This document shows positions 8,946 through 59,482 of a stretch of DNA of 64,000 nucleotides, piece by piece (positions within the stretch are counted from its first letter, which is position 1; each line of letters starts with the position of its first letter). Below the pieces are notes generated by a model that saw only the letters and a program-made list of their open reading frames with translations, was not told the origin of the DNA and made no database searches. Position numbers and translations under genes: made by a program. This DNA comes from Hericium rajendrae. Its lineage: Eukaryota > Basidiomycota > Agaricomycetes > Russulales > Hericiaceae. The stretch lies in the NCBI GenBank assembly GCA_033439255.1, contig CM065883.1:2976001-3040000 (forward strand). The letters are read 5' to 3'.

Positions 8946-9007
8946 ACCACTAAGTGTAGCCATTTAACTAATTGTACAGTACCTGTCACCTGCCACAATG
9001 AAAAATC
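8946..9007 (+). repeat. Left terminal inverted repeat, TET-KDZ copy 1
   Basis: Pairs with 22,260-22,322. Shared blocks are AGTGTAGCCATTTA and CACCTGCCACAATGAAAAAT. The outermost eight bases (ACCACTAA) do not pair with the other end but resemble one end of element E3. Confidence 0.85.
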
Positions 9008-9935
9008 ATCGGCAGCCTACAATTGACAAGTTTTCGCAAATTTAGCTAAATGCCTACCTCTACACATTTAGCTAAATGCACTCAACTTATCTTCCAGGTC
9101 TGAAAGCCTCAATCTTATCAAATCTAATCACAAAAAAAATGTCGCATAAAAAACATATGTCGTGCGAAAAACATATGTCGTGTGAAAAACATATGCAAAA
9201 AAAAAAACACACCTTTTGAACTTGCCTGCAAATCCTGGTGAAGACACAGAGCGAGAAGCAAAAGGTTACTGACATTATAATGATGCAAGATCTCAAGGTA
9301 AGGTATCAAGTATAGCTGTTCGTTAAGGAGCAAAGCTGTGCGAAAGCGAGTAAGTGAGGATGTGATGATTCGGGAAATATGTCGATATATCTTCGTGACG
9401 CTGTGGAAGCGTAAGGCATGTACCAGGTGTCGCGAGTTGAGTCGAACCAAATAGAAGCACTGTTTCGCAGATTGAGGCGAAATAATAGGGCCTGGAGAGG
9501 AAAACACCTAGAGCAGAGATTAGTATGCACGAGTAGAGATAAACAAGGGGAGGCGATGAGATAAGAAATAATGCTACAGTATGGACCATGCAGTGAGCAT
9601 ATAATGCTGGAGAGTGAGAGTTATGAAAACAGTATGGTAGAAAGCTGTATGACGCAAGGGTATAAGACAATGCAATGAGATGTAAGTGGGAACAGATATG
9701 ATATAGATGCAATATTAGGCGTTGAGATTTGACCTGTAGGACCTTCGTGGAGCGTCGTGGAGCATCGTGGAATGTCGTCAGACAGAAAATATCATGAAGT
9801 GTCAGGTGGGGGCATCATGGAGGGAAAATGAGAGGCATGAGACGAATGTGTTGAAGAAGGAGGAGATAAATATGATCGATGTTTGAACAGTTGCATACGA
9901 GGCGCAGGAAGGGGCAGAGACGCTGCACACAAGAA
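9008..9935. other. Subterminal non-coding region, TET-KDZ copy 1
   Basis: No gene. Palindromic ATTTAGCTAAAT motifs lie at 9,040-9,052 and 9,065-9,078. Short tandem units follow: CATATGTCG with A runs (about 9,140-9,200) and GTGGAGCGTCGTGGAGCATC-like units (about 9,750-9,780). The open frames here are short, lack motifs, and look like chance. Confidence 0.6.
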
Positions 9936-12900
9936 TTAATTCCTGCGGCGCTTCTTGGGTCTAGTTGAGCCAGAGGGGAGCGGGGTGCTGATTGTTCACT
10001 TCAGCGCACCAACAGGCCAGTGAAAAGCAAGGTACAAACCTCTTTCGCTTCGCAGAGCCACCCTCACTATCCAGTTTCCACCTACGAATAGAGGTGAAGG
10101 CCAGGGTGACCTGAGCGACAGCATCCTGCCACTCCTGTGCCTGTTGCGAACTCACACCTCCCGCCTTGAAGACCTCAGCACCCCAGAAGGATAAGCTAAC
10201 GATGATGAGCACCAGGCCACAACTGGTAGTGACGTCCATGCAGGACCAATCCAAGTCCTCTGCCGGGGGACCTGGCCTACCCTTCCAGTTGACACCACGC
10301 TCTTGAGGCTGGCAGTCTCCCCACCAAGCCCACCATGCGCTCGAGTACGCCGTGAGACTTCCAACCGGTCGATCCTTGGCAGTTCTCTTGTAGGCAATCC
10401 ACCTGCCAACAGGCTCGGGGCGGGTCGTAGCAGAAAAGGCACCAACATTGGGGTTGGACTTAACGTCGACCTGTTTGACTGTTAGCTACAGTACTACCTT
10501 CCGTTCAAGCAATGCCAACTCACCGGAAATCCATCCAAACGCTCGATCTCGACCCACTCTGTCATGCAAGCCATCCAGCCCTCACCCCAGTCCTTTCCAT
10601 TGGTCAAGAATTTGTACAGCTCACGCATCTTGTCCGGCCAGGATGTGGTGTCCTTCTCAGCCATCACTATGGAGGTTGTGGTGGCAGCCACCAAGCTTCT
10701 TGCAGGACCCGTGACGGATGCAGCTGGCCGACGACGCCTTGCCATCTCTTCCATGGTTTGCAGTGCATTGGGAGGCGGTTGACTTGGTGGCCAAGATGAG
10801 CTCGGAGGAGGCCTCGTGGAAGGCAGCTTGGCTCTTTGCGAAGGCTCGGGGGAAGATGAGGCTTCAGCAAAGTGCTGAGTAAACGGAGGTGCTCCAGGAG
10901 AGAAGAGCGGCGACAACGGGCAAGGGGGCTTGTTTCGAATGCGTGCTTGACGCCTTGGAGTCCGAGAGGGTGTCTTTGGGATAGCGTCCACGTCCATGAA
11001 TGGATTCTCGGGTTCGTTACGCTCTCGATCCTGCTCACGGGTGCTACGCATTGCGTTCCATTCCATCTCCCGCTTGTCCTCCAGCAAGCTCCATGTGAGT
11101 TCCTCAAGCTCCCTCGCCGTCCCACTGCGCTGCGAGGGGAACGGCCTTCGCACGTATGGCTGCAGCATCCGACTGGCTGGCATATTTGAGAAACTCGGCG
11201 CGACGAGCGACTCGTCCTCGGGTATGAGGGGTGACAAGGGCGGGGTGTGTAGGCCGTCTGGCTCCTCGTGTTCATGATGTTCTCCTTCAGATGCTGACTG
11301 CACCTCAAGGCGCGGATCAATGGACATCTTCGTGCTCGCTGCAGGGTGATCCGTTTGCATAACAAAGCCAGGCGCAGGTTGAGACATCAACCGCCTGGAC
11401 GGCATGTTGACAGATGGTGCCACACGGGGTGCAGGCTGTGAAGCAGTCCGAGAGGGACGCGAGACAGAGGAGGAGGGTGGTGGCGGCGGCAGACGGCGAT
11501 GCAGACTAGTGTCCTGGGAAGGGCGATGACTCAGGTGGGCTGAAGCGGGGCTGGAGCTAGGCAGGAACAACGGGGTCCTGGCTGGACCATGAGCTTGCTT
11601 CGACGGCATGGCAGATCGGCTGGGCGCTGCGTGCAAGGGAGCGGCAGGCGTACGCGGTGGAGTGGGACTCGACGGCATGAAGGGAGGAGTGGGTGTGCGA
11701 TCCGGCGACTCTGAGACACGTGAAGGATAAGAACGGCCTTCACGAGGGGACAGTGCTGATGGTGTCCCACCAGCCTCCGGCGTTCGCATATGAGTTGACC
11801 CACCGATAGGTGGAGACCGGCTAGCATGAGGTGGGACTTCAGGCGGAGCAGTACCACGTAAAAAAGCAGCATCCTGCTGCTCGTCCGTCGCTTCCGTGGG
11901 CCTCGACGGCCCCTCGTCTGTTGACGTATCAACGCAGGAGCTCGACGCAACGCTTGGGAGAGCGCGCGCTGCACGCTCCTCCGGGGCTACGTAGGCAGGT
12001 CCATCAGTACGTAGACCACAGAACAGACACACATTACTCACTAAAACATTGCTCCCCAAATGCGCGCATCGATTTCACCATCGCCTCGCAGGCCTCCGGC
12101 TCGGCGTCCATCCACTCCAAGCTTGCGGGATCGTTTGTGGTCCCAACGTGAATACTGTGTACAACGTTAACTTGATACACGGCAGCACAACGGGAAAGAC
12201 GCACCTCTTCACACCGATCGCTCCCCTCGCGCTGAGATAGGGCCGTACACCATTATCGAAACATTCATGCCAAGCTTCTTCGACATGTGCTCGGCAAAGG
12301 GATATAGATAGTGAGGGGCTTTAGACTGCATCCTGCATGACGTGAATCAGCCTACAAGTCACCATGAGGAGTGACTGTACATACTCATGGTAGTACTCTG
12401 GCGTCTTCTCTGCGTCAGCAGAGTCCAAGAGCTGGCGATACGTGTCCATGGCCTTGTCATAAATGCCGTCTAACTCCTGCTTGAGGCTCTCCTTGAACTC
12501 GTCCGATTGCGAGCAGTACACCGCGCGGGTGAAAGCAGCCCGCAGTGTGACTTCAACCAGCTTGCCACCTTTCTTCGCGAAACTCTGACGCCAATTGTCA
12601 TAGACGTCCTGGAAGAGATCGTCGCCTTCAAACATCACGCCGGCAAGCAAGGCGAGCTGATCTTCTGAAGGTAAGCCTTCCATGCCCGGCTGTTGAGGGA
12701 TCGCCTGGGCAGCCACCCATGCTGAGGCGACGGTGCGGAAATGGGCATCGAAACGGTCTTTGACCATGGCGTCGTAGTGCTTCGTGGAGAAAAACTGATC
12801 CGCGTGGGCACGGCGAGGCTTCTCAGGAGCCATGTCGACCATGGCGTCGAACTTCTTGCTCAGTCCATCGCGAGGTTTCTTGCTCCCGGAGCTATTGCCG

Positions 12901-13377
12901 TTATTGCGGAACCAATGGGAAAGAGCCTATAAAGCAGGCAAGTCAGAATAAGCGAAGAGAGATGAGAAGGACGCGCACCTTTCGAAGAGCCTTCCGCTTC
13001 ACGCTCTTCTTCTGAGCGATCGCCTCCGCGCGAGCTGCATGAGCCGCGGTCTGGTCCCCTACTGGCCCGTCCTCGCCTGCAAAGTCCTCGGCGCCCTCGT
13101 CCTCGTCCACGTCATCGGGTAAAGGGATGATTCTCCCCTCTGCGTTGACGTCAAAATCGTACCCGATTTCTTGCAGATAGGTATTCGTGGTCTTGTCATA
13201 AAACGTGCTGGTCGTGGGAGGATCGGCGGCAGTGGCGTCTCGCCATGCTGATACGTGTCGCTGGCAGAACTCGACTCGGTGGCCGAGTAGGAAGGGCTTG
13301 CGGCCGCGAGGCTTCCCTAGACCAGCAAGGCGCGACTTGCGAACGCGTGGTTTGCCTGCGAGCGTCTTGCCAGCCAT
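9936..13377 (-). pseudogene. Gene A of TET-KDZ copy 1: large Trp-rich/disordered protein, frameshifted
   Basis: Seven exons by comparison with intact copy 2 (47,097-50,539). A C run of four at 12,223-12,226 (five in copy 2) breaks the frame in exon 3, so the product would end soon after SARGERSV. Everything else is kept: the basic N-terminus beginning MAGKTLAGKPRVRK, the KRKALRKALSHWFR segment, the Pro/Ser-rich middle, the WPDKMRELYKFLTNGKDW block, the Trp-rich block, and the basic C-terminal tail ending PKKRRRN. It is divergently arranged with gene B (starts 343 nt apart). It is an unknown family, homologous to the E3 gene at 39,136-45,540. Confidence 0.75.
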
Positions 13378-13637
13378 CGGGCTGTCTGCGGCGTCAATCA
13401 GGTGGGAGACGAATAGGGAGTGAACGAAGGAGTACAAACACCGACTCACAAGCCGGTTCCGGCCAGTTCCGGTCATTACCCGACGTAGCCGAACTTCAAC
13501 TATACGCACGTGATCAAAACGAACCGCGTTCAGGCTCGCGTTCTCGAGCGCGTAGAGGCCCTCTCGCACGTTCAGCGTAGGCTGCTCTGCGGCTCGACTT
13601 CCTTCGCTTCCTTCGCTGTGGCTGACGCCCCCCAGCC

Positions 13638-13645
13638 TATATAAA
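13638..13645 (+). promoter_or_regulatory. TATA box of gene B, copy 1
   Basis: TATATAAA lies 75 nt before the gene B ATG at 13,721, in the short space between the divergent genes A and B. It is preserved in copy 2. It is the only strong TATA box I see between the two genes. Confidence 0.6.
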
Positions 13646-13720
13646 CCCCTCTCAGCTCCTCGGTAATATTCACTCCCCTTTCCCCTCTTTTACTCGCCTC
13701 TATCTGTCGTGCTCGCGGGG

Positions 13721-14959
13721 ATGCTCTCGCCGCTGTGCATTCCCCCGCCGTCTGTGACCACCGCAGCCAGGACCCCATCGTCGTATGCTACGCCTTTGTC
13801 GTCGCGCCCGACGCCAACGTCGTCGTATGCGACGGACCCAGAGCTGGTCAGGCTTATGGGCCAGGTTGAGATTGACGCAGAAGGAAAGGCATGTAAGTGT
13901 TGTGCCTTTGGCCGGCGCGTCTTGTTCTTACTGTGAGGCTCATCGTGCAGACATCCCCGCTCGTGGCTCCTCATCTCCAACCTCTCCGCGTTCGTCTTCC
14001 CCTTTCCCGAGCAGTTGGTCCGCAAACGACGTCGATTCGGATGGTGCGCGTGATCATCATTCGCGTGTTGGATGCTACTCAAAACGATATAGATCTCATC
14101 GCTATGAATGGCCATCATTATCGTGTAGTTTCGGGCAAGCGTACGGGGTTCTTTTCACAGTGGTAAGCAGTAACTAGCGTAGGAGTAGAGTTAAATAGTG
14201 AAGTTTTGTCCTGTAGGTGGGAGGCTGGCGCCCTGAGCCAAGGCGTCCCACAAGGATTGGCCTATGCCTTTCGTGCCAGGAGTAGCAAGGGTCAGAAGGC
14301 CGGGCGGGCTCGCCGCCTTCACGTCCTACGCCATAACGCAGAAGAAGCCGGCGATGGTTCGGGTTGCGAGGGCGGGTCGTGGGTTAAAGCTTGGGTTGTC
14401 TTTAGGGGCTATTGCCCCGGGGTATACTACGATTTGTAAGTTTTGTCCCTATCGCAGTGGCCAGGAGCTCATTCCTATACGTAGGGCACGCGCAGAGGAG
14501 CAGGTTCGTGGATGCGCACAGCCGCTCTACATTGGTTTCCATGACTGCTGCGACGCATGGGCGGCGTGCCGTGCTCACTTCGAGCGTGGTCTGACGCACT
14601 TCTGCAAGGAAGGGTCGTTAGAGTGCCATCCTACTCTCGCGCCGTGGGTCCGTGCAGCTCCTGGCTCGACTCATAGTGATGCCAACAACGACGAAGGTGA
14701 CGGCATCACGTTAAGTCCTCAGCACAGTTCTGATGCAGGGCCTGCTTCGCAGTTTCATGATTTACCGGACGACCATGTAGGCCCCGTCTATGTTGTCTTC
14801 CAGGGAAAGAAGCCCGGGCTATATTCTTCGTATTGGTCGACGTTGAAGCAGGTTTGTGGGGTGTCGCTGAACAACTTTAGCAAATACAAGAATCTTTGTA
14901 TTGGTAGGCAGGCGTTTGCGGAGGCACTTGCGGCCGGCTGTGTGCGCGTACGGAATTAG
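13721..14959 (+). CDS. Gene B, copy 1: protein with three RNase H1 N-terminal (hybrid-binding)-like domains
   Basis: Five exons (13,721-13,892; 13,951-14,043; 14,093-14,162; 14,217-14,435; 14,458-14,959) give 351 residues with all phases consistent. A Ser/Pro/Thr-rich N-terminus is followed by three copies of the fold known as the caulimovirus viroplasmin/RNase H1 N-terminal domain. They begin YRVVSGKRTGFFSQW, WVVFRGYCPGVYYD and VYVVFQGKKPGLYSSYW. Each is followed by a G(V/C)...F segment and a downstream A-rich helix. In RNase H1 this domain binds RNA:DNA hybrid or dsRNA. No catalytic RNase H domain follows. The fourth intron (14,436-14,457) would be only 22 nt but is needed to keep the frame. 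A homologue lies in E3 (30,222-38,897), so the gene is a conserved partner of KDZ transposases. Confidence 0.7.
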
Positions 14960-15851
14960 CGTACCCATGACGATGTTGAGTCTGTGGCTCCTTGCAGGGG
15001 ATGAATCTTTGCTATCTTCGCTTTCCGGTCTTGTTACAATCCCACATGTGGTGTTACTTTTCTTACGCTCTCGGTCGCTTCTTACTCTGGATATGCAAAT
15101 GTTAAGTGTGTTGCCGCTGTCTTTGTTCCAGAGCATTTAATTTGTTTTCCTGTGCGTTTTATGGTGGCGTCATCAGCATTACTCATCCGCTTGTGCAATG
15201 TTGAGACTCCGCTTCATCGGGGTGTGAATTGTGAGGCCTGGCCTACATACCGCTTTCGGACGTGGCCAACTTGACCTCTCATCCCTTCCTCAGCGTGTTT
15301 TTCTCCTCTCTCCTTCTATCCACTCCTTTTTCTTCCTCTGGGTTGAGCCGTCTTGGTGAGCGGCTTGCCTTTTTCTTCTTGTCTTGGTGGTTCCGTCCGT
15401 CCTTCAAGTTGGGTCTCGCCAAGGCCCAGCAGCTGGACGGCGGAGCCGCAGGACGTCTTCTGCGTTTTATTTTGCCTCTCGACGCGATCTGACCTCGTTC
15501 GCACGCGTCTTTACCTAGGGCCGGCCGTTAGGACGACAAGCCCGCCTGGTTGACACGTCGTGCGCGTGTAACGCTCGCTGGTGAGTCGTTCCCTCTTCCA
15601 CGTCCCTTCCCAGAGGCTCCGTCTGTCCTTCAAGTTGGGTCTCGCCCAGGCCCAGCAGCTGGACGGCGGAGCTGCGGGACGCCTTTCTTCCCTCTGATTT
15701 GTCTGTCGACGCGATCTGACCTTACGCACGCGTTCCTACTCAGGGCGGCCCTCGCCAGGACGATTCCACTCTGACACGTCGAGCGCGCGCCTGGTACGTG
15801 ACACGTAGCCTCTTCGTGCCACGCACACTGATTGTCTTCTACACGCAGCAG
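14960..15851. other. Intergenic space before TET, copy 1
   Basis: About 890 bp between gene B and the TET gene. It contains a tandem duplication (separate entry) and pyrimidine-rich stretches. The short open frames have no motifs. It probably carries the TET promoter. Confidence 0.5.
15401..15766 (+). repeat. Tandem duplication upstream of TET, copy 1
   Basis: Two units of about 140 bp, 226 bp apart (15,401-15,540 and 15,627-15,766). Both contain CCTTCAAGTTGGGTCTCGCC, CAGCAGCTGGACGGCGGAGC and GACGCGATCTGACC. The same duplication is in copy 2 (52,562 and 52,787), so it predates their separation. Confidence 0.8.
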
Positions 15852-17679
15852 ATGGAGGGTGCCTGCTCCCCCGTGTTCACACGCCTGACTCGTTCCGGCC
15901 GCACGTTCAATCCTTTCGACCGCTCCCTAGCCTCCGTGCCGATCCGGGTGGCTCACAGGAAGGGCGACGTCAGCGCAGGGCTGTTGAAAGCCTTTGAAGA
16001 GGAGGATAGGCAGGACCAGGCTTCGGCGGCCGAGCAAGAGAGTGAGCAGCAGGCTGGCTGGCAGGATGCGGTCGGCGCACACAGTCCTTCCTTCTCTCCA
16101 GGCTCGTCCTCTTCGCTGTCGCGAAAGCGCGTGTTTTCCACTCCCCTCAACCCACTGATGTGGCCCGCACCTTGTTCGCGAAGCTCCTCGCCTTTATCAG
16201 AGGTCTCACGCAGCCCTTCGCCCACTCGTTGCCCCCCATCGGTGCCCTCGACTGCAGCCTCTCCCCCGGCGGCTGGCCACCCACCCCTCAGCCATAGCCC
16301 TGCTGCCCATCAACGCGCCTTCGAATTTTCAGAGGACGACATCCAACCCAGCGTTGCCTTCGACCCTGTGAAGCAACACCGTGCTAACTCGAAGACAAAG
16401 AGGAGGTGCAAGAAACGAGCGCGCCTTCGCCCAAAAGTCATCCAGCCAGGCAGCGGCGCCACGAAAGTCTGGTCTTCACTGTCTCGCCGTAGCCTCAAGG
16501 CCGTCGTGGTTCCAACCAGCTTCAATGCAGCTCGCTTGAGGAGGGATACCTGGAGCTACATTGGGGTGAGGTCAAAGCCATTGAAGGCAAGGCCGTGGAC
16601 CTATGATGAGCTCATTGCGCTGGGGTTTGAGGAGTTGGACTGGGACGAGTAGTGAGTGGAGGCTCTGTCTTTTGCACGCGCATGCTGACGAATCTCACCC
16701 CCTGCTCCTTAGCTCCCCCCATGCTCTCTGCGACCCGGAGGGCTGCATCGTGGCCTTTCTTCCGGGCAGGCCGCAGGGCGCTGACTGGGAGGCCGTGGTC
16801 GAGGAGGTTACAGTCACATTGGAGAGAGCAGAGCGGGAGAGCAGGAGATGGTCTACCAGAGGGCTTGTAGACCGACGGCGGGGCGACTTTCTTGCTCTCA
16901 ACACGGGGCCGTCGTACGGTGGAGGTCCCGAGGTGCGCTTTCTACTGTGTACTCTCTGCACCTCGGTCTCATTTGTCACACGCTTCAGCTTCCGCATAAT
17001 CTCGCGAACACTGGGCCCATGCAGAGGATACTAGACAAGCTTCTAGACAACTGGGCCATTCAGCGTGTGGCCGGCTTTGGCAGCAGTGAGTGTGTCCCTC
17101 CCGGAGATATCCATCTGTGCTAATGTTTTCACAGGCATATTTGCACTGTATGCTCCGAAGGTTTATGCATACTACGCGGAGAACTTCCAGAAGCTTTGCC
17201 ACCAGTTCCCCAGCCTTAAATGGCCATTCCAGAATAGCATTTTCCCCACCTCCACCTTTAACCTTGGCCCCGCCACCGTTTGCCACGATCATATCGACTG
17301 TACCAACGTGCCGCACGGATGGTGCGTCATCACGCCGTTCGGGCGTTTCGACCATAAGAAGGGTGGCCAGCTCGTGCTCTGGGAGTTTGGGTTGATTATC
17401 AACTTGCCTCCGGGGTCGAGCGCAGAGATTCCGTCCTCCTCGATAAGGCATGCCAATACTGCCATTGCGGAAGGGGAGACGCGCTTCTCCTTTACTCAAT
17501 ATTGTCCTGGAGGGTTGCTGCGGTACATGCGCCATGGGTTTCGCCCAGCGGGCACATTGTCCTATCAGGAGCGGGTGGAGATGGATGGTTTGCCCGAAGA
17601 ACGGTGGAGATGGGCTTTAACACTATTCTCAACTATTACAAGTCTCGTTTCAGACCGCCTTCAAGTTTTCGGAGGTTAG
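15852..17679 (+). CDS. TET/JBP-family 2-oxoglutarate/Fe(II) dioxygenase, copy 1
   Basis: Four exons (15,852-16,651; 16,713-16,932; 16,989-17,085; 17,135-17,679) give 553 residues with phases that all match. Family enzymes oxidise 5-methylcytosine to 5hmC and beyond in the nucleus. The N-terminal half is disordered, with a basic patch (KTKRRCKKRARLRPK). It is followed by DPEGCIVAFLPGRP and RRGDFLALNTGPSYGGG, typical of fungal TET/JBP proteins. The catalytic domain has FNLGPATVCHDHIDCTN with the H-x-D pair (17,290-17,298), GWCVITPFGRFD, GGQLVLWEFGLIINLPPGS, the distal His (17,449-17,451) and the 2OG-binding Arg (17,482-17,484). All metal and cosubstrate residues are present. The gene is intact here but has a stop in copy 2. 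Linkage of TET/JBP genes to KDZ transposons is known in Agaricomycetes. Confidence 0.85.
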
Positions 17680-17961
17680 GTTTTAGTCTGTCCTTTCTTG
17701 TGTATTAAAATGTTCGCTCCACGGCCTGTAACTGCTTGCTCTGGTCTTCGCAGAGTGGGGTCTAGACCAAGTCTTTTCGAAGTCGACGCGTGCTTATCCA
17801 ATGTTCCCACGCGCCTCGTCAAGGCGGCGCCTCGCATGCTGCCAGCGCTGTCGTCTCACCACCGTCACCTTCCCATCTCCCTCATCCTGCCCAAAGCCTG
17901 CACACATTGTCTTCAGCTTTCGATCCCCTATTCCCTTCTCGTCGCACGTCAGCTCTTCGCA

Positions 17962-20900
17962 ATGGCAAAGAACAAGTCCAAGAAACGCATTCGAGAAATG
18001 CATGATCACGACCAGCCTGCTATCATCTCGGAGGTCCTCTCCTTGGACAGCCGTCATCGTGTTCACATGAGAACAGACCACATCGCGCCAACGCCCATCA
18101 TCCCCCCGCCGCCAGATGCTGACCAAGCTGTCCCCGACGTCGACTTGCCTGAGGAACAGTTCTTCAAAACGCCGGAGGTCGCAGGATCGGCAGAGCCCGG
18201 GCTGGACGGCATTGAGTTAGTGCCAGCGAAGCGATATAGGAACTCAGTGAGCCAGCATCGATTGCTGAGCCTGACGGCATCTGACTTGTGGCCCAACAGG
18301 ACCTCCCTCTCTTAACCTGGAGGGAGTATGCGTCGGATTACTTGGATGAGGTGCTGAGGTTGGATGGGAGGGGTGAGGCCGCCTGTGAGACCAACTGCGG
18401 GGTAGAGAGCACTTGTGGGCTGTGTGGTGCCATTGGGTCTGCCTTTCGCTGCAGGGACTGTCACGGAGGGCAGCTTCTCTGCAAGGATTGCTTGCTGAAT
18501 GTTCACCGCGCACTCCCGCTGCATGTGGCCGAGGTGAGCCTCCTGTGTCCTGCCTTTTTTCTCTTCCACATCCTCACGCCCATTCCCTGCCTTGATAAGC
18601 AATGGCTCCATGGCCGCTTCCAGCAAGTTATGCTCTGTGACTTGGGCCTCCGAGTTCAAGTGGGGCATGCCTTTGCAGGCCCATGTCCTGCTCGCGAGGC
18701 CGCTCATAAGGATTTCATCGTTCTGCATACGAAGGGATCCACCCTGTCAGGGTCGACTTCTGTCGGTGCCCTGATAGCATGCCGTCCCGAATCCAACTCC
18801 TCCGCGCTGCCTGGTGGCCCGCTACGCCTCGCTCGCCACAAACGTGCGCAACCATGGCCTGTCTGCGCCAGTTTCACTCCTTGAATCTACAAGGAAAAAT
18901 CTCGGGGTATGACTACTACAAGTCACTCGAGCTCCTGACCAATGCTGCTGGGCTTTTGAAGATACCGGTGCGTCGGGCCATGGCCTTTGCTGTATGCTTG
19001 GCCCAAACGCTGATGGCTTTGCCCTTGTAGGATCGCCTTCCTATGCTCATGCTCATGATGCGTCAGTGGAGGTTCATCAAGATGCTGAAGCGTGCGGGTA
19101 GGGGCTTGGAGCCTAGTGGGATCGAGGGGACAAAGCCAGGGGAGCTCATTGTTCAGTGCCCGGCCTGCCCTCGCCCCGGGGTTAACCTCCCTTCTAACTG
19201 GCAGGATGCACCCCCTGAAACTGCGTGAGTTGATTCTACTCCGTGGGGAAGGTTTTTTGTCTGAAGCATACTTCGTAGCTTTTTGTACTGGCTTGTCCTA
19301 GCTATGGACGCAAATTTCAGACTCAAAAGTTGCCTTCGCACAAGTGAGGAGCACGACCCGTCGCTGGGCAGCGGCTTTGCATATTTCGTCGAGAGCAGGG
19401 GTTATGGGAAGTACGTGGTGGAGCATACCAGTGAGGAGGACGTGAGTGCACCGCGCCATCCCTATCAGCCACGAATTAATGTGGCTTCTGCAGATCAGCA
19501 CTTGTGTTGCATTTGCTGCCTTGGCGACGGCAAACTTGAAGAGGTCAACAGGGCTGGCTGCTACAGGGGTGGGCGCAGTCACCTGCGGCCGCCATCAGTT
19601 CTGGAGGCCAAATGGCATAGGGGATCTGCAGAAAGGTGAACGGTTAGTCTTCACATTGTGTTTATCTGCAGACCTAGTGCTGACTTGCTACAGCTATATC
19701 AACATGGACTACATCTTCCTGTCCACACTTATGGGGGTCATTATCAAGACGCTGGTCTCCTCTTACGACCTTGCCTGCCAGTGGGAGAAGAAATTCTGGC
19801 CTCGTATTGGTGACTTCCCTAGTGACATGCAGCAGTCCTTGGCTCAGGCCAACGTGATCTTCTTGGTTCCCGAATTCCACCTGCAGGCCCATGAGGAGTC
19901 TTGTCATAGCAAGTACTCATCGCGGCGAACCGTTGGGATGGGCCGCTCAGAGCTGGAGGGCCCAGAGAGGAATTGGGCATGGCTCAACGGGGCGGCGGCT
20001 AGCACTAAGGAGATGGGACCTGGTTCGAGGCGTGATACATTGGATGACTTCTGTGGGTTCTCCAATTGGAGGCGTGTGGTTGGAATGGGTATGTTTTTAC
20101 AAACTTTTCTTTCTGGCCCACTGTCTAAGACTCATCTTTAGGCTCATCTCTTCTTCGCAAGATGCTAGAGGCCATCCCGAATGCAATCAATTTTCGTTAC
20201 GCATTTGATCAGATGGTGGCTGGCTTCCGCGATAAGCGTCCAGAGGATCTCGAAGCCTGGGAGGCGATGTTTGCAGCATGGGATGCGGACAAGAAGAAAA
20301 AGCCGAGTCCTTTTGCGACCCCGCGCACCAGTGCGTCACCCTTTCTCCTTTATGCTGGCTTCAGACCCTGACCTTTTCGTAGAGAAGACGTTGGCGCAGA
20401 TAAAGCGGGAGCTCAAGGACGAGGAACAGGCTGCCTTGGGTGCTGCTGGAGAAGTAGAGGACGACACCAGCCCATCGTCTTTCCTTTTGCTGGGCATCGA
20501 GATCCAGCATACTCAGTGAGTTCTTTTATAATGAGGCCCCTTGCTTTTGCTGATTGTTTATTACAGGAGAATACTCCTTAGTGAAGTACGAGCAACAAAA
20601 TCTCCGACTACCCTTCAGCTCTCCGACATTGATGCTCATCGCCGTGCCTTGAGAAGAAAGATTAGACGTTTTCGCAGGCAGCAGGCCACTCATATGCCTG
20701 GGACCCAAGCTGCTGGCGTCAATGAAGCTGAAGACGGTGCGGCAATGGCTGCAGACCAGGCTCAGGCTGAGGAAGCAGAGCTGAAGATGCCATCAGACTT
20801 CGAGAGTGCAGAGACGCGACAGGCAGTATGTCCACCTGCTCTTGCTGCAGTCGAGGCTCGGCTGCGAATGGCAGAAGCGCAGGATGCATTGGAGGCGCTA

Positions 20901-21845: not shown

Positions 21846-22259
21846 GGTGTGTAGATTCCTCTATTGTCTTCAGCCCCTATTGCTTCACAGCCTCTGCCAT
21901 TCTCATGTTCATTTTGTTGAGCTTGCTGTTCCTCTCCTGCCCTGATCATTTCGATCTAGATCCTGCATGCCTTCTTGAACATCTTATGACGTAGTATTTT
22001 GCCTCTGTTATCTTATCGCACTATCCGGCAAAATCATAGAATACCTCCATTTTTGAACGCAATATCATGTTTTTGTCCTTTTCAGTATTTGTTTGATGTT
22101 CTGTTTCGGAAGAGGGCTGTGACGAACAGATTAGATTATGAGTCTTTAGGCAAGATAAGACCAACGCTTTTAGTTAAATGGCACTTGGACATTTAGCTAA
22201 ATGTACATATGTACATTTAACTAAATACATGGCAATTTACCAATGGTGGATCACCGACC
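21846..22259. other. Right subterminal region, TET-KDZ copy 1
   Basis: Non-coding stretch after the transposase stop. Palindromic CATTTAGCTAAATG-type motifs occur at 22,190-22,203 and 22,214-22,226 (here CATTTAACTAAAT), and again at 22,293-22,306 inside the inverted repeat. They mirror those at the left end and are candidate transposase-binding sites. Confidence 0.6.
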
Positions 22260-22322
22260 ATTTTTCATTGTGGCAGGTGGCACCTACCAATACATTTAGC
22301 TAAATGGCTACACTCACGCCTG
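22260..22322 (-). repeat. Right terminal inverted repeat, TET-KDZ copy 1
   Basis: Reverse complement matches 8,946-9,007 over AGTGTAGCCATTTA and CACCTGCCACAATGAAAAAT. The outer end reads CAGGCGTG on the minus strand, similar to the GAGGCGTC end of E3. Confidence 0.85.
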
Positions 22323-37901: not shown

Positions 37902-37906
37902 ACCGG
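37902..37906. repeat. Right TSD of the Ty3 element
   Basis: ACCGG, identical to 30,795-30,799. Confidence 0.95.
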
Positions 37907-50000: not shown

Positions 50001-50539
50001 CCATGGCGTCGAACTTCTTGCTCAGTCCATCGCAAGGTTTCTTGCTCCCGGAGCTATTGCCGTTATTGCGGAACCAATGGGAAAGAGCCTATAAAGCAGG
50101 CAAGTCAGAATAAGCGAAGAGAGACGAGAAGGACGCGCACCTTTCGAAGAGCCTTCCGCTTCACGCTCTTCTTCTGAGCGATCGCCTCCGCGCGAGCTGC
50201 ATGAGCCGCGGTCTGGTCCCCTACTGGCCCGTCCTCGCCTGCAAAGTCCTCGGCGCCCTCGTCCTCGTCCACGTCATCGGGTAAAGGGATGATTCTCCCC
50301 TCTGCGTTGACGTCAAAATCGTACCCGATTTCTTGCAGATAGGTATTCGTGGTCTTGTCATAAAACGTGCTGGTCGTGGGAGGATCGGCGGCAGTGGCGT
50401 CTCGCCATGCTGATACGTGTCGCTGGCAGAACTCGACTCGGTGGCCGAGTAGGAAGGGCTTGCGGCCGCGAGGCTTCCCTAGACCAGCAAGGCGCGACTT
50501 GCGAACGCGTGGTTTGCCTGCGAGCGTCTTGCCAGCCAT
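47097..50539 (-). CDS. Gene A, copy 2 (intact): 1,033-residue Trp-rich/disordered protein of unknown function
   Basis: Seven exons (50,539-50,141; 50,088-49,547; 49,494-49,366; 49,315-49,203; 49,147-47,685; 47,631-47,201; 47,121-47,097), total 3,102 nt, with every phase consistent. The basic N-terminus (MAGKTLAGKPRVRKSRLAGL) is followed by a helical KRKALRKALSHWFRNN segment, an exon with RRAHADQFFSTKHYDAMVK, an SIHVGTTNDPASLEWMDAEP segment, then about 450 residues of Pro/Ser-rich disorder. The C-terminal part has SWPDKMRELYKFLTNGKDWG, GEGWMACVTEWVEIERLDGF, a Trp-rich segment (SAWWAWWGDC, DLDWSCMDVTTSCGLVLIIV) and a basic tail (SAKRKRPKKRRRN) that looks like a nuclear localisation signal. No known domain is recognised. 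Conservation with the E3 homologue marks it as a KDZ accessory protein; a DNA-binding or targeting role is inference. Confidence 0.75.
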
Positions 50540-50798
50540 CGGGCTGTCTGCAGCGTCAATCAGGTGGGAGACGAATAGGGAGTGAACGAAGGAGTACAAA
50601 CACCGACTCACAAGCCGGTTCCGGCCAGTTCCGGTCATTACCCGACGTAGCCGAACTTCAACTATACGCACGTGATCAAAACGAACCGCGTTCAGGCTCG
50701 CGTTCTCGAGCGCGTAGAGGCCCTCTCGCACGTTCAGCGTAGGCTGCTCTGCGGCTCGACTTCCTTCGCTTCCTTCGCTGTGGCTGACGCCCCCAGCC

Positions 50799-50806
50799 TA
50801 TATAAA
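50799..50806 (+). promoter_or_regulatory. TATA box of gene B, copy 2
   Basis: TATATAAA, 75 nt before the ATG at 50,882, as in copy 1. One C fewer precedes it than in copy 1. Confidence 0.6.
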
Positions 50807-50881
50807 CCCCTCTCAGCTCCTCGGTAATATTCACTCCCCTTTCCCCTCTTTTACTCGCCTCTATCTGTCGTGCTCGCGGGG

Positions 50882-52120
50882 ATGCTCTCGCCGCTGTGCA
50901 TTCCCCCGCCGTCTGAGACCACCGCAGCCAGGACCCCATCGTCGTATGCTACGCCTTTGTCGTCGCGCCCGACGCCAACGTCGTCGTATGCGACGGACCC
51001 AGAGCTGGTCAGGCTTATGGGCCAGGTTGAGATTGACGCAGAAGGAAAGGCATGTAAGTGTTGTGCCTTTGGCCGGCGCGTCTTGTTCTTACTGTGAGGC
51101 TCATCGTGCAGACATCCCCGCTCGTGGCTCCTCATCTCCAACCTCTCCGCGTTCGTCTTCCCCTTTCCCGAGCAGTTGGTCCGCAAACGATGTCGATTCG
51201 GATGGTGCGCGTGATCATCATTCGCGTGTTGGATGCTACTCAAAACGATATAGATCTCATTGCTATGAATGGCCATCATTATCGTGTAGTTTCGGGCAAG
51301 CGTACGGGGTTCTTTTCACAGTGGTAAGCAGTAACTAGCGTAGGAGTAGAGTTAAATAGTGAAGTTTTGTCCTGTAGGTGGGAGGCTGGCGCCCTGAGCC
51401 AAGGCGTCCCACAAGGATTGGCCTATGCCTTTCGTGCCAGGAGTAGCAAGGGTCAGAAGGCCGGGCGGGCTCGCCGCCTTCACGTCCTACGCCATAACGC
51501 AGAAGAAGCCGGCGATGGTTCGGGTTGCGAGGGCGGGTCGTGGGTTAAAGCTTGGGTTGTCTTTAGGGGCTATTGCCCTGGGGTATACTACGATTTGTAA
51601 GTTTTGTCCCTATCGCAGTGGCCAGGAGCTCATTCCTATACGTAGGGCACGCGCAGAGGAGCAGGTTCGTGGATGCGCACAGCCGCTCTACATTGGTTTC
51701 CATGACTGCTGCGACGCGTGGGCGGCGTGCCGTGCTCACTTCGAGCGTGGTCTGACGCACTTCTGCAAGGAAGGGTCGTTAGAGTGCCGTCCTACTCTCG
51801 CGCCGTGGGTCCGTGCAGCTCCTGGCTCGACTCATAGTGATGCCAACAACGACGAAGGTGACGGCGTCACGTTAAGTCCTCAGCACAGTCCTGATGCAGG
51901 GCCTGCTTCGCAGTTTCATGATTTACCGGACGACCATGTAGGCCCCGTCTATGTTGTCTTCCAGGGAAAGAAGCCCGGGCTATATTCTTCGTATTGGTCG
52001 ACGTTGAAGCAGGTTTGTGGGGTGTCGCTGAACAACTTTAGCAAATACAAGAATCTTTGTATTGGTAGGCAGGCGTTTGCGGAGGCACTTGCGGCCGGCT
52101 GTGTGCGCGTACGGAATTAG
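50882..52120 (+). CDS. Gene B, copy 2: triple RNase H1 N-terminal-like protein
   Basis: Same five-exon structure and 351 residues as copy 1 (13,721-14,959), including the 22-nt intron (51,597-51,618). A few substitutions, mostly at CpG, do not break the frame. One transversion near the start changes Val to Glu in the disordered N-terminus. Confidence 0.7.
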
Positions 52121-53011
52121 CGTACCCATGACGATGTTGAGTCTGTGGCTCCTTGCAGGGGATGAATCTTTGCTATCTTCGCTTTCCGGTCTTGTTACAA
52201 TCCCACATGTGGTGTTACTTTTCTTACGCTCTCGGTCGCTTCTTACTCTGGATATGCAAATGTTAAGTGTGTTGCCGCTGTCTTTGTTCCAGAGCATTTA
52301 ATTTGTTTTCCTGTGCGTTTTATGGTGGCGTCATCAGCATTACTCATCCGCTTGTGCAATGTTGAGACTCCGCTTCATCGGGGTGTGAATTGTGAGGCCT
52401 GGCCTACATACCGCTTTCGGACGTGGCCAACTTGACCTCTCATCCCTTCCTCAGCGTGTTTTTCTCCTCTCTCCTTCTATCCACTCCTTTTTCTTCCTCT
52501 GGGTTGAGCCGTCTTGGTGAGCGGCTTGCCTTTTTCTTCTTGTCTTGGTGGTTCCGTCCGTCCTTCAAGTTGGGTCTCGCCAAGGCCCAGCAGCTGGACG
52601 GCGGAGCCGCAGGACGTCTTCTGCGTTTTATTTTGCCTCTCGACGCGATCTGACCTCGTTCGCACGCGTCTTTACCTAGGGCCGGCCGTTAGGACGACAA
52701 GCCCGCCTGGTTGACACGTCGTGCGCGTGTAACGCTCGCTGGTGAGTCGTTCCTCTTCCACGTCCCTTCCCAGAGGCTCCGTCTGTCCTTCAAGTTGGGT
52801 CTCGCCCAGGCCCAGCAGCTGGACGGCGGAGCTGCGGGACGCCTTTCTTCCCTCTGATTTGTCTGTCGACGCGATCTGACCTTACGCACGCGTTCCTACT
52901 CAGGGCGGCCCTCGCCAGGACGATTCCACTCCGACACATCGAGCGCGCGCCTGGTACGTGACACGTAGCCTCTTCGTGCCACGCACACTGATTGTCTTCT
53001 ACACGCAGCAG
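52121..53011. other. Intergenic space before TET, copy 2
   Basis: Non-coding. It contains the tandem duplication at 52,562-52,926, as in copy 1. Confidence 0.5.
52562..52926 (+). repeat. Tandem duplication upstream of TET, copy 2
   Basis: Units begin at 52,562 and 52,787. The content equals 15,401-15,766 of copy 1, with one single-base deletion between the units. Confidence 0.8.
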
Positions 53012-54839
53012 ATGGAGGGTGCCTGCTCCCCCGTGTTCACATGCCTGACTCGTTCCGGCCGCACGTTCAATCCTTTCGACCGCTCCCTAGCCTCCGTGCC
53101 GATCCGGGTGGCTCACAGGAAGGGCGACGTCAGCGCAGGGCTGTTGAAAGCCTTTGAAGAGGAGGATAGGCAGGACCAGGCTTCGGCGGCCGAGCAAGAG
53201 AGTGAGCAGCAGGCTGGCTGGCAGGATGCGGTCGGCGCACACAGTCCTTCCTTCTCTCCAGGCTCGTCCTCTTCGCTGTCGCGAAAGCGCGTGTTTTCCA
53301 CTCCCCTCAACCCACTGACGTGGCCCGCACCTTGTTCGTGAAGCTCCTCGCCTTTATCAGAGGTCTCACGCAGCCCTTCGCCCACTCGTTGCCCCCCGTC
53401 GGTGCCCTCGACTGCAGCCTCTCCCCCGGCGGCTGGCCACCCACCCCTCAGCCATAGCCCTGCTGCCCATCAACGCGCCTTCGAATTTTCAGAGGACGAC
53501 ATCCAACCCAGCGTTGCCTTCGACCCTGTGAAGCAACACCGTGCTAACTCGAAGACAAAGAGGAGGTGCAAGAAACGAGCGCGCCTTCGCCCAAAAGTCA
53601 TCCAGCCAGGCAGCGGCACCACGAAAGTCCGGTCTTCACTGTCTCGCCGTAGCCTCAAGGCCGTCGTGGTTCCAACCAGCTTCAACGCAGCTCGCTTGAG
53701 GAGGGATACCTGGAGCTACATTGGGGTGAGGTCAAAGCCATTGAAGGCAAGGCCGTGGACCTATGATGAGCTCATTGCGCTGGGGTTTGAGGAGTTGGAC
53801 TGGGACGAGTAGTGAGTGGAGGCTCTGTCTTTTGCGCGCGCATGCTGACGAATCTCACCCCCTGCTCCTTAGCTCCCCCCATGCTCTCTGCGACCCGGAG
53901 GGCCGCATCGTGGCCTTTCTTCCGGGCAGGCCGCGGGGCGCTGACTGGGAGGCCGTGGTCGAGGAGGTTACAGTCGCATTGGAGAGAGCAGAGCGGGAGA
54001 GCAGGAGATGGTCTACCAGAGGGCTTGTAGACCGACGGCGGGGCGACTTTCTTGCTCTCAACACGGGGCCGTCGTACGGTGGAGGTCCCGAGGTGCGCTT
54101 TCTACTGTGTACTCTCTGCACCTCGGTCTCATTTGTCACACGCTTCAGCTTCCGCATAATCTCGCGAACACTGGGCCCATGCAGAGGATACTAGACAAGC
54201 TTCTAGACAACTGGGCCGTTCAGCGTGTGGCCGGCTTTGGCAGCAGTGAGTGTGTCCCTCCCGGAGATATCCATCTGTGCTAATGTTTTCACAGGCATAT
54301 TTGCACTGTATGCTCCGAAGGTTTATGCATACTACGCGGAGAACTTCCAGAAGCTTTGCCACCAGTTCCCCAGCCTTAAATGGCCGTTCCAGAATAGCAT
54401 TTTCCCCACCTCCACCTTTAACCTTGGCCCCGCCACCGTTTGCCACGATCATATTGACTGTACCAACGTGCCGCACGGATGGTGCGTCATCACGCCGTTC
54501 GGGCGTTTCGACCATAAGAAGGGTGGCCAGCTCGTGCTCTGGGAGTTTGGGTTGATTATCAACTTGCCTCCGGGGTCAAGCGCAGAGATTCCGTCCTCCT
54601 CGATAAGGCATGCCAATACTGCCATTGCGGAAGGGGAGACGCGCTTCTCCTTTACTCAATATTGTCCTGGAGGGTTGCTGCGGTACACGCGCCATGGGTT
54701 TCGCCCAGCGGGCACATTGTCCTATCAGGAGCGGGTGGAGATGGATGGTTTGCCCGAAGAACGGTGGAGATGGGCTTTAACACTATTCTCAACTATTACA
54801 AGTCTCGTTTCAGACCGCCTTCAAGTTTTCGGAGGTTAG
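53012..54839 (+). pseudogene. TET/JBP dioxygenase, copy 2 (premature stop)
   Basis: Same exon structure as 15,852-17,679. At 53,339-53,341 the codon is TGA where copy 1 has CGA (context TGTTCGTGAAGC against TGTTCGCGAAGC), so the protein ends in the disordered N-terminal part before the catalytic domain. The change is C to T at a CpG. The downstream catalytic sequence is otherwise preserved, including the H-x-D motif, the distal His and the Arg, so the lesion is recent. Internal re-initiation cannot be excluded, but no well-placed ATG is obvious. Confidence 0.85.
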
Positions 54840-55121
54840 GTTTTAGTCTGTCCTTTCTTGTGTATTAAAATGTTCGCTCCACGGCCTGTAACTGCTTGCT
54901 CTGGTCTTCGCAGAGTGGGGTCTAGACCAAGTCTTTTCGAAGTCGACGTGCGCTTATCCAATGTTCCCACGCGCCTCGTCAAGGCGGCGCCTCGCATGCT
55001 GCCAGCGCTGTCGTCTCACCACCGTCACCTTCCCATCTCCCTCATCCTGCCCAAAGCCTGCACACATTGTCTTCAGCTTTCGATCCCCTATTCCCTTCTC
55101 GTCGCACGTCAGCTCTTCGCA

Positions 55122-58100
55122 ATGGCAAAGAACAAGTCCAAGAAACGCATTCGAGAAATGCATGATCACGACCAGCCTGCTATCATCTCAGAGGTCCTCT
55201 CCTTGGACAGCCGTCATCGTGTTCACATGAGAACAGACCACATCGCGCCAACGCCCATCATCCCCCCGCCGCCAGATGCTGACCAAGCTGTCCCCGACGT
55301 CGACTTGCCTGAGGAACAGTTCTTCGAAACGCCGGAGGTCGCAGGATCGGCAGAGCCCGGGCTGGACGGCATCGAGTTAGTGCCAGCGAAGCGATATAGG
55401 AACTCAGTGAGCCAGCATCGATTGCTGAGCCTGACGGCATCTGACTTGTGGCCCAACAGGACCTCCCTCTCTTAACCTGGAGGGAGTATGTGTCGGATTA
55501 CTTGGATGAGGTGCTGAGGTTGGATGGGAGGGGTGAGGCCGCCTGTGAGACCAACTGCGGGGTAGAGAGCACTTGTGGGCTGTGTGGTGCCATTGGGTCT
55601 GCCTTTCGCTGCAGGGACTGTCACGGAGGGCAGCTTCTCTGCAAGGATTGCTTGCTGAATGTTCACCGCGCACTCCCGCTGCATGTGGCCGAGGTGAGCC
55701 TCCTGTGTCCTGCCTTTTTTCTCTTCCACATCCTCACGCCCATTCCCTGCCTTGATAAGCAATGGCTCCATGGCCACTTCCAGCAAGTTATGCTCTGTGA
55801 CTTGGGCCTCCGAGTTCAAGTGGGGCATGCCTTTGCAGGCCCATGTCCTGCTCGCGAGGCCGCTCATAAGGATTTCATCGTTCTGCATACGAACGGGATC
55901 CACCCTGTCAGGGTCGACTTCTGTCGGTGCCCTGATAGCATGCCGTCCCGAATCCAACTCCTCCGCGCTGCCTGGTGGCCCGCTACGCCTCGCTCGCCAC
56001 AAACGTGTGCAACCATGGCCTGTCTGCGCCAGTTTCACTCCTTGAATCTACAAGGAAAAATCTCGGGGTATGACTACTACAAGTCACTCGAGCTCCTGAC
56101 CAATGCTGCTGGGCTTTTGAAGATACCGGTGCGTCGGGCCATGGCCTTTGCTGTATGCTTGGCCCAAATGCTGATGGCTTTGCCCTTGTAGGATCGCCTT
56201 CCTATGCTCATGCTCATGATGCATCAGTGGAGGTTCATCAAGATGCTGAAGCGTGCGGGTAGGGGCTTGGTGCCTAGTGGGATCGAGGGGACAAAGCCAG
56301 GGGAGCTCGTTGTTCAGTGCCCGGCCTGCCCTTGCCCCGGGGTTAACCTCCCTTCTAACTGGCAGGATGCACCCCCTGAAACTGCGTGAGTTGATTCTAC
56401 TCTGTGGGGAAGGTTTTTTGTCTGAAGCATACTTCGTAGCTTTTTGTACTGGCTTGTCCTAGCTATGGACGCAAATTTCAGACTCAAAAGTCGCCTTCGC
56501 ACAAGTGAGGAGTGCGACCCGTCGCTGGGCAGCGGCTTTGCATATTTCGTCGAGAGCAGGGGTTATGGGAAGTACGTGGTGGAGCATACCAGTGAGGAGG
56601 ACGTGAGTGCACCGCGCCATCCCTATCAGCCACGAATTAATGTGGCTTCTGCAGATCAGCACTTGTGTTGCATTTGCTGCCTTGGCGACGGCAAACTTGA
56701 AGAGGTCAACAGGGCTGGCTGCTACAGGGGTGGGCGCAGTCACCTGCGGCCGCCATCAGTTCTGGAGGCCAAATGGCATAGGGGATCTGCAGAAAGGTGA
56801 ACGGTTAGTCTTCGCATTGTGTTTATCTGCAGACCTAGTGCTGACTTGCTACAGCTATATCAACATGGACTACATCTTCCTGTCCACGCTTATGGGGGTC
56901 ATCATCAAGACGCTGGTCTCCTCTTACGACCTTGCCTGCCAGTGGGAGAAGAAATTCTGGCCTCGTATTGGTGACTTCCCTAGTGACATGCAGCAGTCCT
57001 TGGCTCAGGCCAACGTGATCTTCTTGGTTCCCGAATTCCACCTGCAGGCCCATGAGGAGTCTTGTCATAGCAAGTACTCATCGCGGCGAACCGTTGGGAT
57101 GGGCCGCTCAGAGCTGGAGGGCCCAGAGAGGAATTGGGCATGGCTCAACGGGGCGGCGGCTAGCACTAAGGAGATGGGACCTGGTTCGAGGCGTGATACA
57201 TTGGATGACTTCTGTGGGTTCTCCAATTGGAGGCGTGTGGTTGGAATGGGTATGTTTTACAAACTTTTCTTTCTGGCCCACTGTCTAAGACTCATCTTTA
57301 GGCTCATCTCTTCTTCGCAAGATGCTAGAGGCCATCCCGAATGCAATCGATTTTCGTTACGCATTTGATCAGATGGTGGCTGGCTTCCGCGATAAGCGTC
57401 CAGAGGATCTCGAAGCCTGGGAGGCGATGTTTGCAGCATGGGATGCGGACAAGAAGAAAAAGCCGAGTCCTTTTGCAACCCCGCGCACCAGTGCGTCACC
57501 CTTTCTCCTTTATGCTGGCTTCAGACCCTGACCTTTTTGTAGAGAAGACGTTGGCGCAGATAAAGCGGGAGCTCAAGGACGAGGAACAGGCTGCCTTGGG
57601 TGCTGCTGGAGAAGTAGAGGACGACACCAGCCCATCGTCTTTCCTTTTGCTGGGCATCGAGATCCAGCATACTCAGTGAGTTCTTTTATAATGAGGCCCC
57701 TTGCTTTTGCTGATTGTTTATTACAGGAGAATACTCCTTAGTGAAGTATGAGCAACAAAATCTCCGACTACCCTTCAGCTCTCCGACATTGATGCTCATC
57801 GCCGTGCCTTGAGAAGAAAGATTAGACGTTTTCGCAGGCAGCAGGCCACTCATATGCCTGGGACCCAAGCTGCTGGCGTCAATGAAGCTGAAGACGGTGC
57901 GGCAATGGCTGCAGACCAGGCTCAGGCTGAGGAAGCAGAGCTGAAGATGCCATCAGACTTCGAGAGTGCAGAGACGCGACAGGCAGTATGTCCACCTGCT
58001 CTTGCTGCAGTCGAGGCTCGGCTGCGAATGGCAGAAGCGCAGGATGCATTGGAGGCGCTACGGCGGCACCTACGCATGCGGACCTTCTTCAATGCCTTCA

Positions 58101-59005
58101 AAGTCAAGAACGTAGTCGGGCAACGCCCCAACACCAGAGCTAGGCAGACGCAAACCCGGGTCGACGACCGAGTGAAGCTCTACAAGCTTCGGTACCAGCA
58201 TGCGCACTGGGCCTTGATGCGCCTGACTGGAGGAGGAGCCTGGATGAACGACCTCCGCGAGCTCCGTGACAAAGACGTTCGGTCACTCAACGAAGATCTA
58301 TTGGATGTTATTGCCTTGCCAGGAGATGAAGGCGACAATGATGCTCACTCGCAGGGCATGCAGGGGGGGAGCCAAGGTAGGGGGCGACGAGGGAGGCAGA
58401 TGGAAAGGAGTCAGGCCAGCCAGGGGAGAGGGAGTCGGGCGAGCCGTAAAAAGGCTCCATCCACAGTGTCGTGGATCTGGCAGCTTGTCCCTATCACATC
58501 AGATGAGACAGACCCAGATCTCCAGGAGGGTAAGTCGTCTCAGCTATTGCCTTGTGGCCTTATTGTCTTACGCTTTTGTTCAGCTCTTCGCGTGGAATGG
58601 GCAAAGTCGAAGGTGCACGCTGCTCGATGGCACGAAGAAGTTCAGCGTCTGGAAGAGGAGATGAGGTGTGTGCTTGAGACATTTGCCACGGAGGCCTCAC
58701 TTTGGGAAGACCGGTCGGCCAGGCGTGACGCTGCTCTTGACGGAGAGGGCAACATTGACGAACCAGGCAATTTAGCCCTGAAGGAAGGCCTCCATGCCTA
58801 TGCTGCTGAGCAAGCAGCAATGTATCGTTGTCTGGCTGCTCAGTTCGGTGAGCGTTGGGCTGCGGTGAGAAGCAAGGCAAAGCCTGTGCTAGATGGGACA
58901 GCGTACCAGTGGGATGATGGGGATGAAGGTCTAGACGCACCCCCAGTAACTCAGATCGAGGTTGAGGTTGAGGTGCGAGAGGAGGATGACTTCTGGCTTG
59001 GCTGA
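55122..59005 (+). CDS. KDZ transposase with CxC2 cluster, copy 2 (intact)
   Basis: About eleven exons, roughly 1,100 residues. The short introns have GT...AG ends and the phases were followed through the whole gene. The CxC2 cluster is CGLCGAIGSAFRCRDCHGGQ, then LLCKDCLLNVHRALPLH. It continues in frame through IVLHTNGIHPVRVDFCRCPD, where copy 1 is broken. The RNase H-like core has MDANFRLKSRL, SYDLACQWEKKFW and GPERNWAWLNGAAASTKE with the likely catalytic D, D, E. The C-terminal helical region has basic stretches and ends EEDDFWLG. It should recognise the element's terminal repeats and could mobilise both copies. Confidence 0.85.
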
Positions 59006-59419
59006 GGTGTGTAGATTCCTCTATTGTCTTCAGCCCCTATTGCTTCACAGCCTCTGCCATTCTCATGTTCATTTTGTTGAGCTTGCTGTTCCTCTCCTGC
59101 CCTGATCATTTCGATCTAGATCCTGCATGCCTTCTTGAACATCTTATGACGTAGTATTTTGCCTCTGTTATCTTATCGCACTATCCGGCAAAATCATAGA
59201 ATACCTCCATTTTTGAATGCAATATCATGTTTTTGTCCTTTTCAGTATTTGTTTGATGTTCTGTTTCGGAAGAGGGCTGTGACGAACAGATTAGATTATG
59301 AGTCTTTAGGCAAGATAAGACCAACGCTTTTAGTTAAATGGCACTTGGACATTTAGCTAAATGTACATATGTACATTTAACTAAATACATGGCAATTTAC
59401 CAATGGTGGATCACCGACC
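59006..59419. other. Right subterminal region, TET-KDZ copy 2
   Basis: Non-coding, equivalent to 21,846-22,259 and carrying the same CATTTAGCTAAATG-type palindromes. Confidence 0.6.
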
Positions 59420-59482
59420 ATTTTTCATTGTGGCAGGTGGCACCTACCAATACATTTAGCTAAATGGCTACACTCACGCCTG
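59420..59482 (-). repeat. Right terminal inverted repeat, TET-KDZ copy 2
   Basis: Same as 22,260-22,322 in copy 1; pairs with 46,107-46,168. Confidence 0.85.

Follow-up and report, generated by a model that had tools for sequence, protein, structure and literature searches.

Four-gene KDZ transposons of Hericium rajendrae with a TET/JBP-like dioxygenase and two accessory genes

Among mobile elements that bring along an enzyme for an epigenetic mark of the host, KDZ transposons with TET genes are a prominent example; the name KDZ reportedly goes back to Iyer et al. in 2014. Here we analyse a 64,000-nucleotide stretch of the Hericium rajendrae genome (C6:2976001-3040000 in an assembly of 46.8 Mb and 19 contigs; hereafter the window), which holds three KDZ elements, E1, E2 and E3. 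E1 and E2 each contain four genes: a KDZ transposase, a dioxygenase gene (T), a gene with RNase H1 N-terminal domains (B) and a large gene (A). The four-gene element is probably a selected unit.

The closest described systems are the Kyakuja elements, which have CA..TG ends and 7-bp target duplications (Kojima 2025, PMC12730594; our statements on Kyakuja and its TET types refer to the accessible part of that paper). In the published view, a transposon-borne TET counters silencing by methylation (PMC12730594). Like the TET-carrying Kyakuja of Agaricomycetes, the elements described here combine a KDZ transposase, CA..TG ends and 7-bp duplications with a dioxygenase beside the transposase; unlike theirs, the dioxygenase is of neither the AG nor the PE type, and the accessible description of those elements does not mention A or B (PMC12730594). 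Two Laccaria Kyakuja families are reported to lack terminal inverted repeats (TIRs) (PMC12730594), whereas in E1 a 74-nt inverted pair, 72% complementary, starts 34 bases inside the ends. The Cryptococcus elements KDZ1-KDZ3 share the KDZ transposase and a CxC cysteine cluster, but have TIRs of 139-241 bp and duplications of 4-8 bp, and the accessible part of their description names no A, B or T (PMC12810828). Zisupton/Dileera, with an 8-bp duplication against 7 bp here, are set apart by duplication length alone. E1, E2 and E3 probably form one lineage of Kyakuja-type KDZ transposons. TET-carrying Kyakuja elements are already known; the A/B/T module is apparently undescribed, since in openly searchable papers (subscription literature lay outside the search) we found no description of the module, of the diverged T, or of separate canonical TET elements beside it.

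The four-gene element in two diverged families

E1 and E2 are 99.4% identical, bearing out an earlier reading of the window (the original prediction) as containing two near-identical 13.4-kb elements (Table 1). Two more copies of this family lie on contig C14 (C14:661304-674666 and C14:698733-712066), with ~91% identity to E1/E2 and 98.5% between themselves. The borders CACCAC...CGCCTG, of the CA..TG kind, are common to all four copies. The 7-bp target duplication is exact in both C14 copies (CCTCATG; AGAAATC) and matches at 6/7 positions in E2 (TACGGTG/TACGGCG). E1 is the sole copy of the four without a target-site duplication in its flanks, at 8945 and 22322; recombination between copies could account for this. 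The two copies are 37.2 kb apart on C6 and 37.4 kb apart on C14; a segmental duplication was considered for this similarity and rejected, as the flanks do not align at E 1e-20 save for a KDZ stretch beside one copy.

The expected KDZ transposase was found in each element; the E2 model matches the KDZ domain with E 1e-59 (202 bits against a curated cut-off of 26.6) and also contains a CxC2 domain. B had been described as a protein with three RNase H1 N-terminal-like domains, and the corresponding Pfam family, PF01693, is matched over its cut-off in three stretches of the E2 version (E 3.4e-13) and again in the E3 version (E 2.5e-23). Domains of this type bind RNA:DNA hybrids, and one E3 B domain can be aligned over 45-51 residues with the hybrid-binding domains of the yeast (1qhk) and human (3bsu) RNase H1 proteins. 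Unlike RNase H1, B has three such domains, and a domain scan of the E2 and E3 versions found no RNase H catalytic domain. A is, as predicted, a large protein without a known domain: it has no credible match in Pfam and none among solved structures. A cytochrome b562 match in Pfam (E 2.6e-4, in one of five members) was judged to be chance, and an HMG-box-like look of A, seen by eye, gains no support from domain searches. Between B and T, upstream of T, lies a 106-bp direct repeat (73-78% alike), at 15354-15459 and 15580-15685 in E1 and at 52515-52620 and 52740-52845 in E2.

The ratio of nonsynonymous to synonymous substitution rates (dN/dS), computed between E1/E2 and the C14 copies, is 0.15-0.16 for the transposase; T (0.24-0.25), B (0.25) and A (0.30-0.31, with the exon at about 12205-12332 excluded) have higher values. 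These copy pairs are ~9% diverged. The few changes within copy pairs give values between 0.22 and 0.68. From the values of 0.15-0.31 between pairs we conclude that all four proteins are kept by purifying selection. The common termini with 7-bp duplications, together with purifying selection like that on the transposase, make it most likely that A, B and T serve the element. In its full form this element would have a fixed order, with A pointing outwards, followed by B, T and the transposase.

The third element, E3, is homologous to E1 in A (E 1.3e-16), B (E 4e-8) and the transposase (E 4e-131), so the similarity claimed for A and B proved significant. The original prediction had these three genes in the same order as in E1 and E2, with TET lacking. 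The order stands, and homology searches of the element and of the genome showed no T match in E3; the orientations do not all stand: B and the transposase share a direction in E1/E2 but face opposite ways in E3. This flip of B recurs at the KDZ gene C3:3263981 and in a second four-gene family, three copies of which lie on contigs C3 and C4. The C3/C4 family served to locate the ends of E3 by comparison: its termini are CACCAG...GACGCCTC, and both it and E3 end in TC, not TG. Its 7-bp duplication, TTCATGA, is exact in one of the three copies and mismatched in a second, and the left end of the third copy was not found. A first pair of E3 ends (23256, 46011) lay, by our estimate, near chance expectation and was dropped for the ends that match this family. 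Given the extent of E3 (Table 1), E2 is inserted inside it. E3 is a diverged KDZ element, as proposed, and the view of E2 and E3 as neighbours was rejected. The expectation that A and B lie inside the same element ends as the transposase is borne out within the termini of two diverged families.

Association with KDZ genes across the genome and in other species

We merged matches across the genome into gene clusters, obtaining 130 for KDZ, 46 for canonical TET (PF12851), 39 for PF01693 (B), 41 for A and 56 for T. The KDZ set comprised 131 rows from the 150 matches listed of 172, with 19 omitted as further exons within about 1 kb; all rows were used for TET (46/46, including 8 below the cut-off), PF01693 (46/46, with E up to 0.1 and several under the cut-off) and T (63/63); and the A set comprised 83 of 153 rows, the remainder overlapping these or belonging to genes already included. 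As a control, positions were rotated along the contigs in 1000 trials, with the lengths of six contigs approximated. Within 15 kb of a KDZ gene we found 34 of 41 A clusters, 29 of 39 B clusters, 27 of 56 T clusters and 38 of 46 TET clusters, against rotated means of 5.7, 5.0, 4.9 and 5.2, respectively; no trial reached the observed value. In this genome the predicted co-occurrence of A and B with KDZ genes thus holds, and both genes belong regularly to one KDZ lineage.

Side and orientation, scored against the nearest KDZ gene within 16 kb, are also strongly patterned. A is upstream of the KDZ gene and opposed to it in 30/34 cases, T upstream and co-oriented in 24/27, and B upstream in 27/30 (22 co-oriented, 5 opposed). 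Canonical TET resembles T in being upstream of and co-oriented with the transposase (36/38). T, B and A are all upstream at 15 of the 130 KDZ genes. These 15 four-gene elements were counted by eye from the co-location table and include the four copies of the window family and three of the C3/C4 family; C3:2518002, C7:2267190 and C7:2285288 have all three kinds upstream but were excluded, as the orientations point to a neighbouring element. At KDZ C14:698373, T and A are upstream and B is present by gene prediction only.

Canonical TET behaves differently with respect to A and B. Just 1 of the 46 TET clusters is near A and 1 is near B, which is chance level (rotated mean 1.6) with no depletion, and canonical TET as the partner of A and B is not supported. 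The co-location counts point to two sorts of KDZ element in the genome, those with TET and those with A and B, the latter in some cases also with T. A small tree of 11 sequences unites the transposases of three sampled TET elements in a clade of their own (support 1.0), with less support for its other nodes. One genome therefore holds two sorts of KDZ element with a dioxygenase in the same place, canonical TET without A/B beyond chance in one and the diverged T with A and B in the other. This is a natural comparison for what a dioxygenase does for its element, and for the part of RNA:DNA hybrids in the silencing of mushroom transposons or its evasion.

Relatives of these genes occur in other species; the closest protein matches include Hericium and Auriscalpium, as would suit a Russulales mushroom. 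In Hericium alpestre, EWM64_g4745 corresponds to A and EWM64_g4744 to T, their neighbourhood being read from the consecutive locus tags and a 19,658-base contig for each. A profile search with A gave 94 homologues among 7999 candidates scored, and those listed are all from Mycena or Favolaschia. Four of the 94 have a precomputed PF01693 annotation, and another three are named after the domain. The domain was present in 7 of 8 A proteins that we scanned (three chosen by domain, three by name and two by length) and in 1 of 29 picked without regard to it. Some predicted Mycena A genes are, as modelled, fused to a B-type domain, and such models are a small minority. As A proteins with PF01693 occur elsewhere, A and B are linked outside this genome too, and a context is now given to ‘hypothetical proteins’ of Mycena, Hericium and relatives.

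Identity of T and the role of the module

2-oxoglutarate (2OG)-Fe(II) dioxygenases are expected to carry HxD, a distal H and R in this order. T has these residues in the same order, with HxD in all five T proteins compared. In a profile comparison with the genome's own TET domains (E 4e-5, probability 69%), the aligned part of T includes the catalytic H and D as well as the distal H. The predicted TET/JBP dioxygenase therefore stands at the level of the superfamily and fails as a canonical TET: T was rejected as an ordinary PF12851 protein for want of a match over the cut-off, and none of the genome's 46 PF12851 matches (38 over the cut-off) falls inside the window. No solved structure matching T by sequence was found. 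At the places of Gly331 and Asp337 of CcTET, AG-type TET proteins have Gly or Ser and Asp, respectively (PMC12730594). T has Asn at the first (H+5; 5/5 proteins) and Cys at the second (H+11; 4/4 covering it), and so is not of the AG type of Kojima 2025; having HxD and not HxE in 5/5, it is not of the PE type either. From its sequence, T is best called a TET/JBP-like dioxygenase of a separate type. The median distance to the KDZ gene is 2.0 kb for T and 2.8 kb for canonical TET. Because T occupies the slot that TET has in other elements, common descent in place is possible, if unproven.

What the module might do can be pictured from these genes. T would oxidise a modified base, so that the DNA or promoter of the element stays active. 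B, through its three hybrid-binding domains, would bind element-derived RNA:DNA hybrids or double-stranded RNA, and would then block RNA-guided silencing or bring T to transcribed copies. A would be a large partner of B, the two being one protein in some Mycena gene models. Given such roles, the module would most likely be an anti-silencing and support apparatus carried by the transposon; the anti-silencing mechanism itself is put forward tentatively. It is conceivable, though we would not call it probable, that the module is a self-contained anti-silencing cassette of a major mushroom transposon lineage. In it T as a new type of TET-like dioxygenase, the triple hybrid-binding B and A as a new protein family would together single out transcribed copies and remove or block their silencing marks, and the cassette would have evolved in parallel to the canonical TET-carrying Kyakuja of the same genome.

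Several observations weigh against a four-gene unit with a TET-like enzyme. All four genes are present in E1 and E2, as had been predicted, but they are not all intact: under the splice models there are stops in one exon of A in E1 and in the N-terminal part of T in E2, and when the other copies are read in the frame of E1, further stops appear in both C14 copies (A and T, and in one of them also the transposase) and in E2 (T and the transposase). The homology search of the genome gave no T match upstream at E3 and at KDZ C3:3263981, and at several KDZ genes these searches detected a single accessory gene, either A or B, so that none of the three is demonstrably obligatory. The absence of T from these two elements agrees with the earlier description of TET as a removable cargo, against which stand its fixed place and orientation and the purifying selection on it. 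Of the 56 T clusters, 29 lie away from any listed KDZ gene, so T occurs in other settings too. PF12851 is over its cut-off in none of five T proteins and appears in one of them with E 0.025, and the relation of T to TET, as judged by profile comparison, is weak. Among the T homologues away from KDZ genes (e.g. C11:77052, C11:2255460 and C19:177524), three have an identical match score and are for this reason perhaps carried by another repeat.

The chief alternative would be that A and B are direct cofactors of transposition, in end binding, synapsis or target choice, with T a separate add-on and silencing not involved. This might be so, but we are inclined to doubt it. E3 and several further KDZ genes have A and B without a T match, and A, with no known domain, could bind DNA. 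Against this, the KDZ elements with canonical TET, many of them near-identical by match scores, lack A and B beyond chance, which argues that they are dispensable for KDZ transposition itself, and the domain type of B binds RNA:DNA hybrids in its relatives. The multiplication of canonical TET elements in this genome, with no A or B nearby, mildly favours anti-silencing or support roles. We consider it unlikely that T is a 2OG dioxygenase acting on RNA, protein or a small molecule instead of methylated DNA bases, its likeness to TET going no deeper than the fold. The missing PF12851 match, the Asn and Cys at the CcTET positions (numbered as in PMC12730594, accessible part) and the many T clusters away from KDZ genes would fit such an enzyme, but the profile match spans the catalytic residues, and T has the same slot and orientation as the canonical TET of the other KDZ lineage.

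That A, B and T are mere passengers without benefit to the element is very improbable. Copies with stops in A or T do exist and some elements lack T, but dN/dS is 0.24-0.31 for these genes between pairs ~9% apart, and gene order is kept in diverged elements. KDZ elements also cluster and nest in this genome, so A and B could in principle lie near KDZ genes by chance or through a shared pile-up in repeat-rich regions; this is scarcely credible and, provided that the gene calls are right, was rejected on the rotation controls. The constant side and orientation of these genes speak against it too, as does the finding that canonical TET in the same regions meets A or B no more often than by chance.

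Feature positions and insertions within E3

The features of the window are collected in Table 1.

Table 1. Elements and genes in the window, with positions counted from its first base
Feature	Position	Strand	Remarks
Element E1	8945..22322	+	CACCAC...CGCCTG; 13,378 bp; no target-site duplication
Gene A of E1	9961..13377	-	six predicted exons, one with a stop under the splice model
Gene B of E1	13721..14959	+	splice model; three RNase H1 N-terminal domains (domain test made on the E2 version)
Gene T of E1	15852..17679	+	553 amino acids; 2OG dioxygenase, remote TET/JBP relative
KDZ transposase of E1	17836..21845	+	gene model
Element E3, including nested insertions	24131..60054	-	net 11.7 kb; flanks ATAACTC/ATGACTC (6/7); termini like the C3/C4 family
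KDZ transposase of E3	25031..29067	-	homology to E1
Gene B of E3	30222..38897	+	split by a long terminal repeat (LTR) retrotransposon
LTR retrotransposon in B of E3	30800..37901	-	duplication ACCGG
Gene A of E3	39136..45540	+	split by a hAT element inside an intron
hAT-like element in intron of A of E3	39520..43238	+	8-bp duplication GTTCATCA; 18-nt inverted repeat at ends
Element E2	46106..59482	+	13,377 bp; nested in E3; flanks TACGGTG/TACGGCG
Gene A of E2	47122..50539	-	1051-amino-acid model
Gene B of E2	50882..52120	+	342-amino-acid model
Gene T of E2	53012..54839	+	premature stop in the N-terminal part
KDZ transposase of E2	54996..59005	+	with CxC2 cysteine cluster

The LTR retrotransposon that splits B of E3 has a 1379-amino-acid open frame with reverse transcriptase, RNase H, integrase and chromo domain, and over their first 400 positions its LTRs show a single difference. 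The element in the intron of A is termed hAT-like from the look of its predicted protein and its 8-bp duplication. Related elements host two of the four window-family copies: E2 lies in E3, and the copy at C14:698733-712066 is inserted in or beside another KDZ gene fragment. In the end region of E3 beside E2, positions 59559-59872 consist of GC-rich tandem repeats of ~21 bp, and repeats also occur at the corresponding end of the C3/C4 family.

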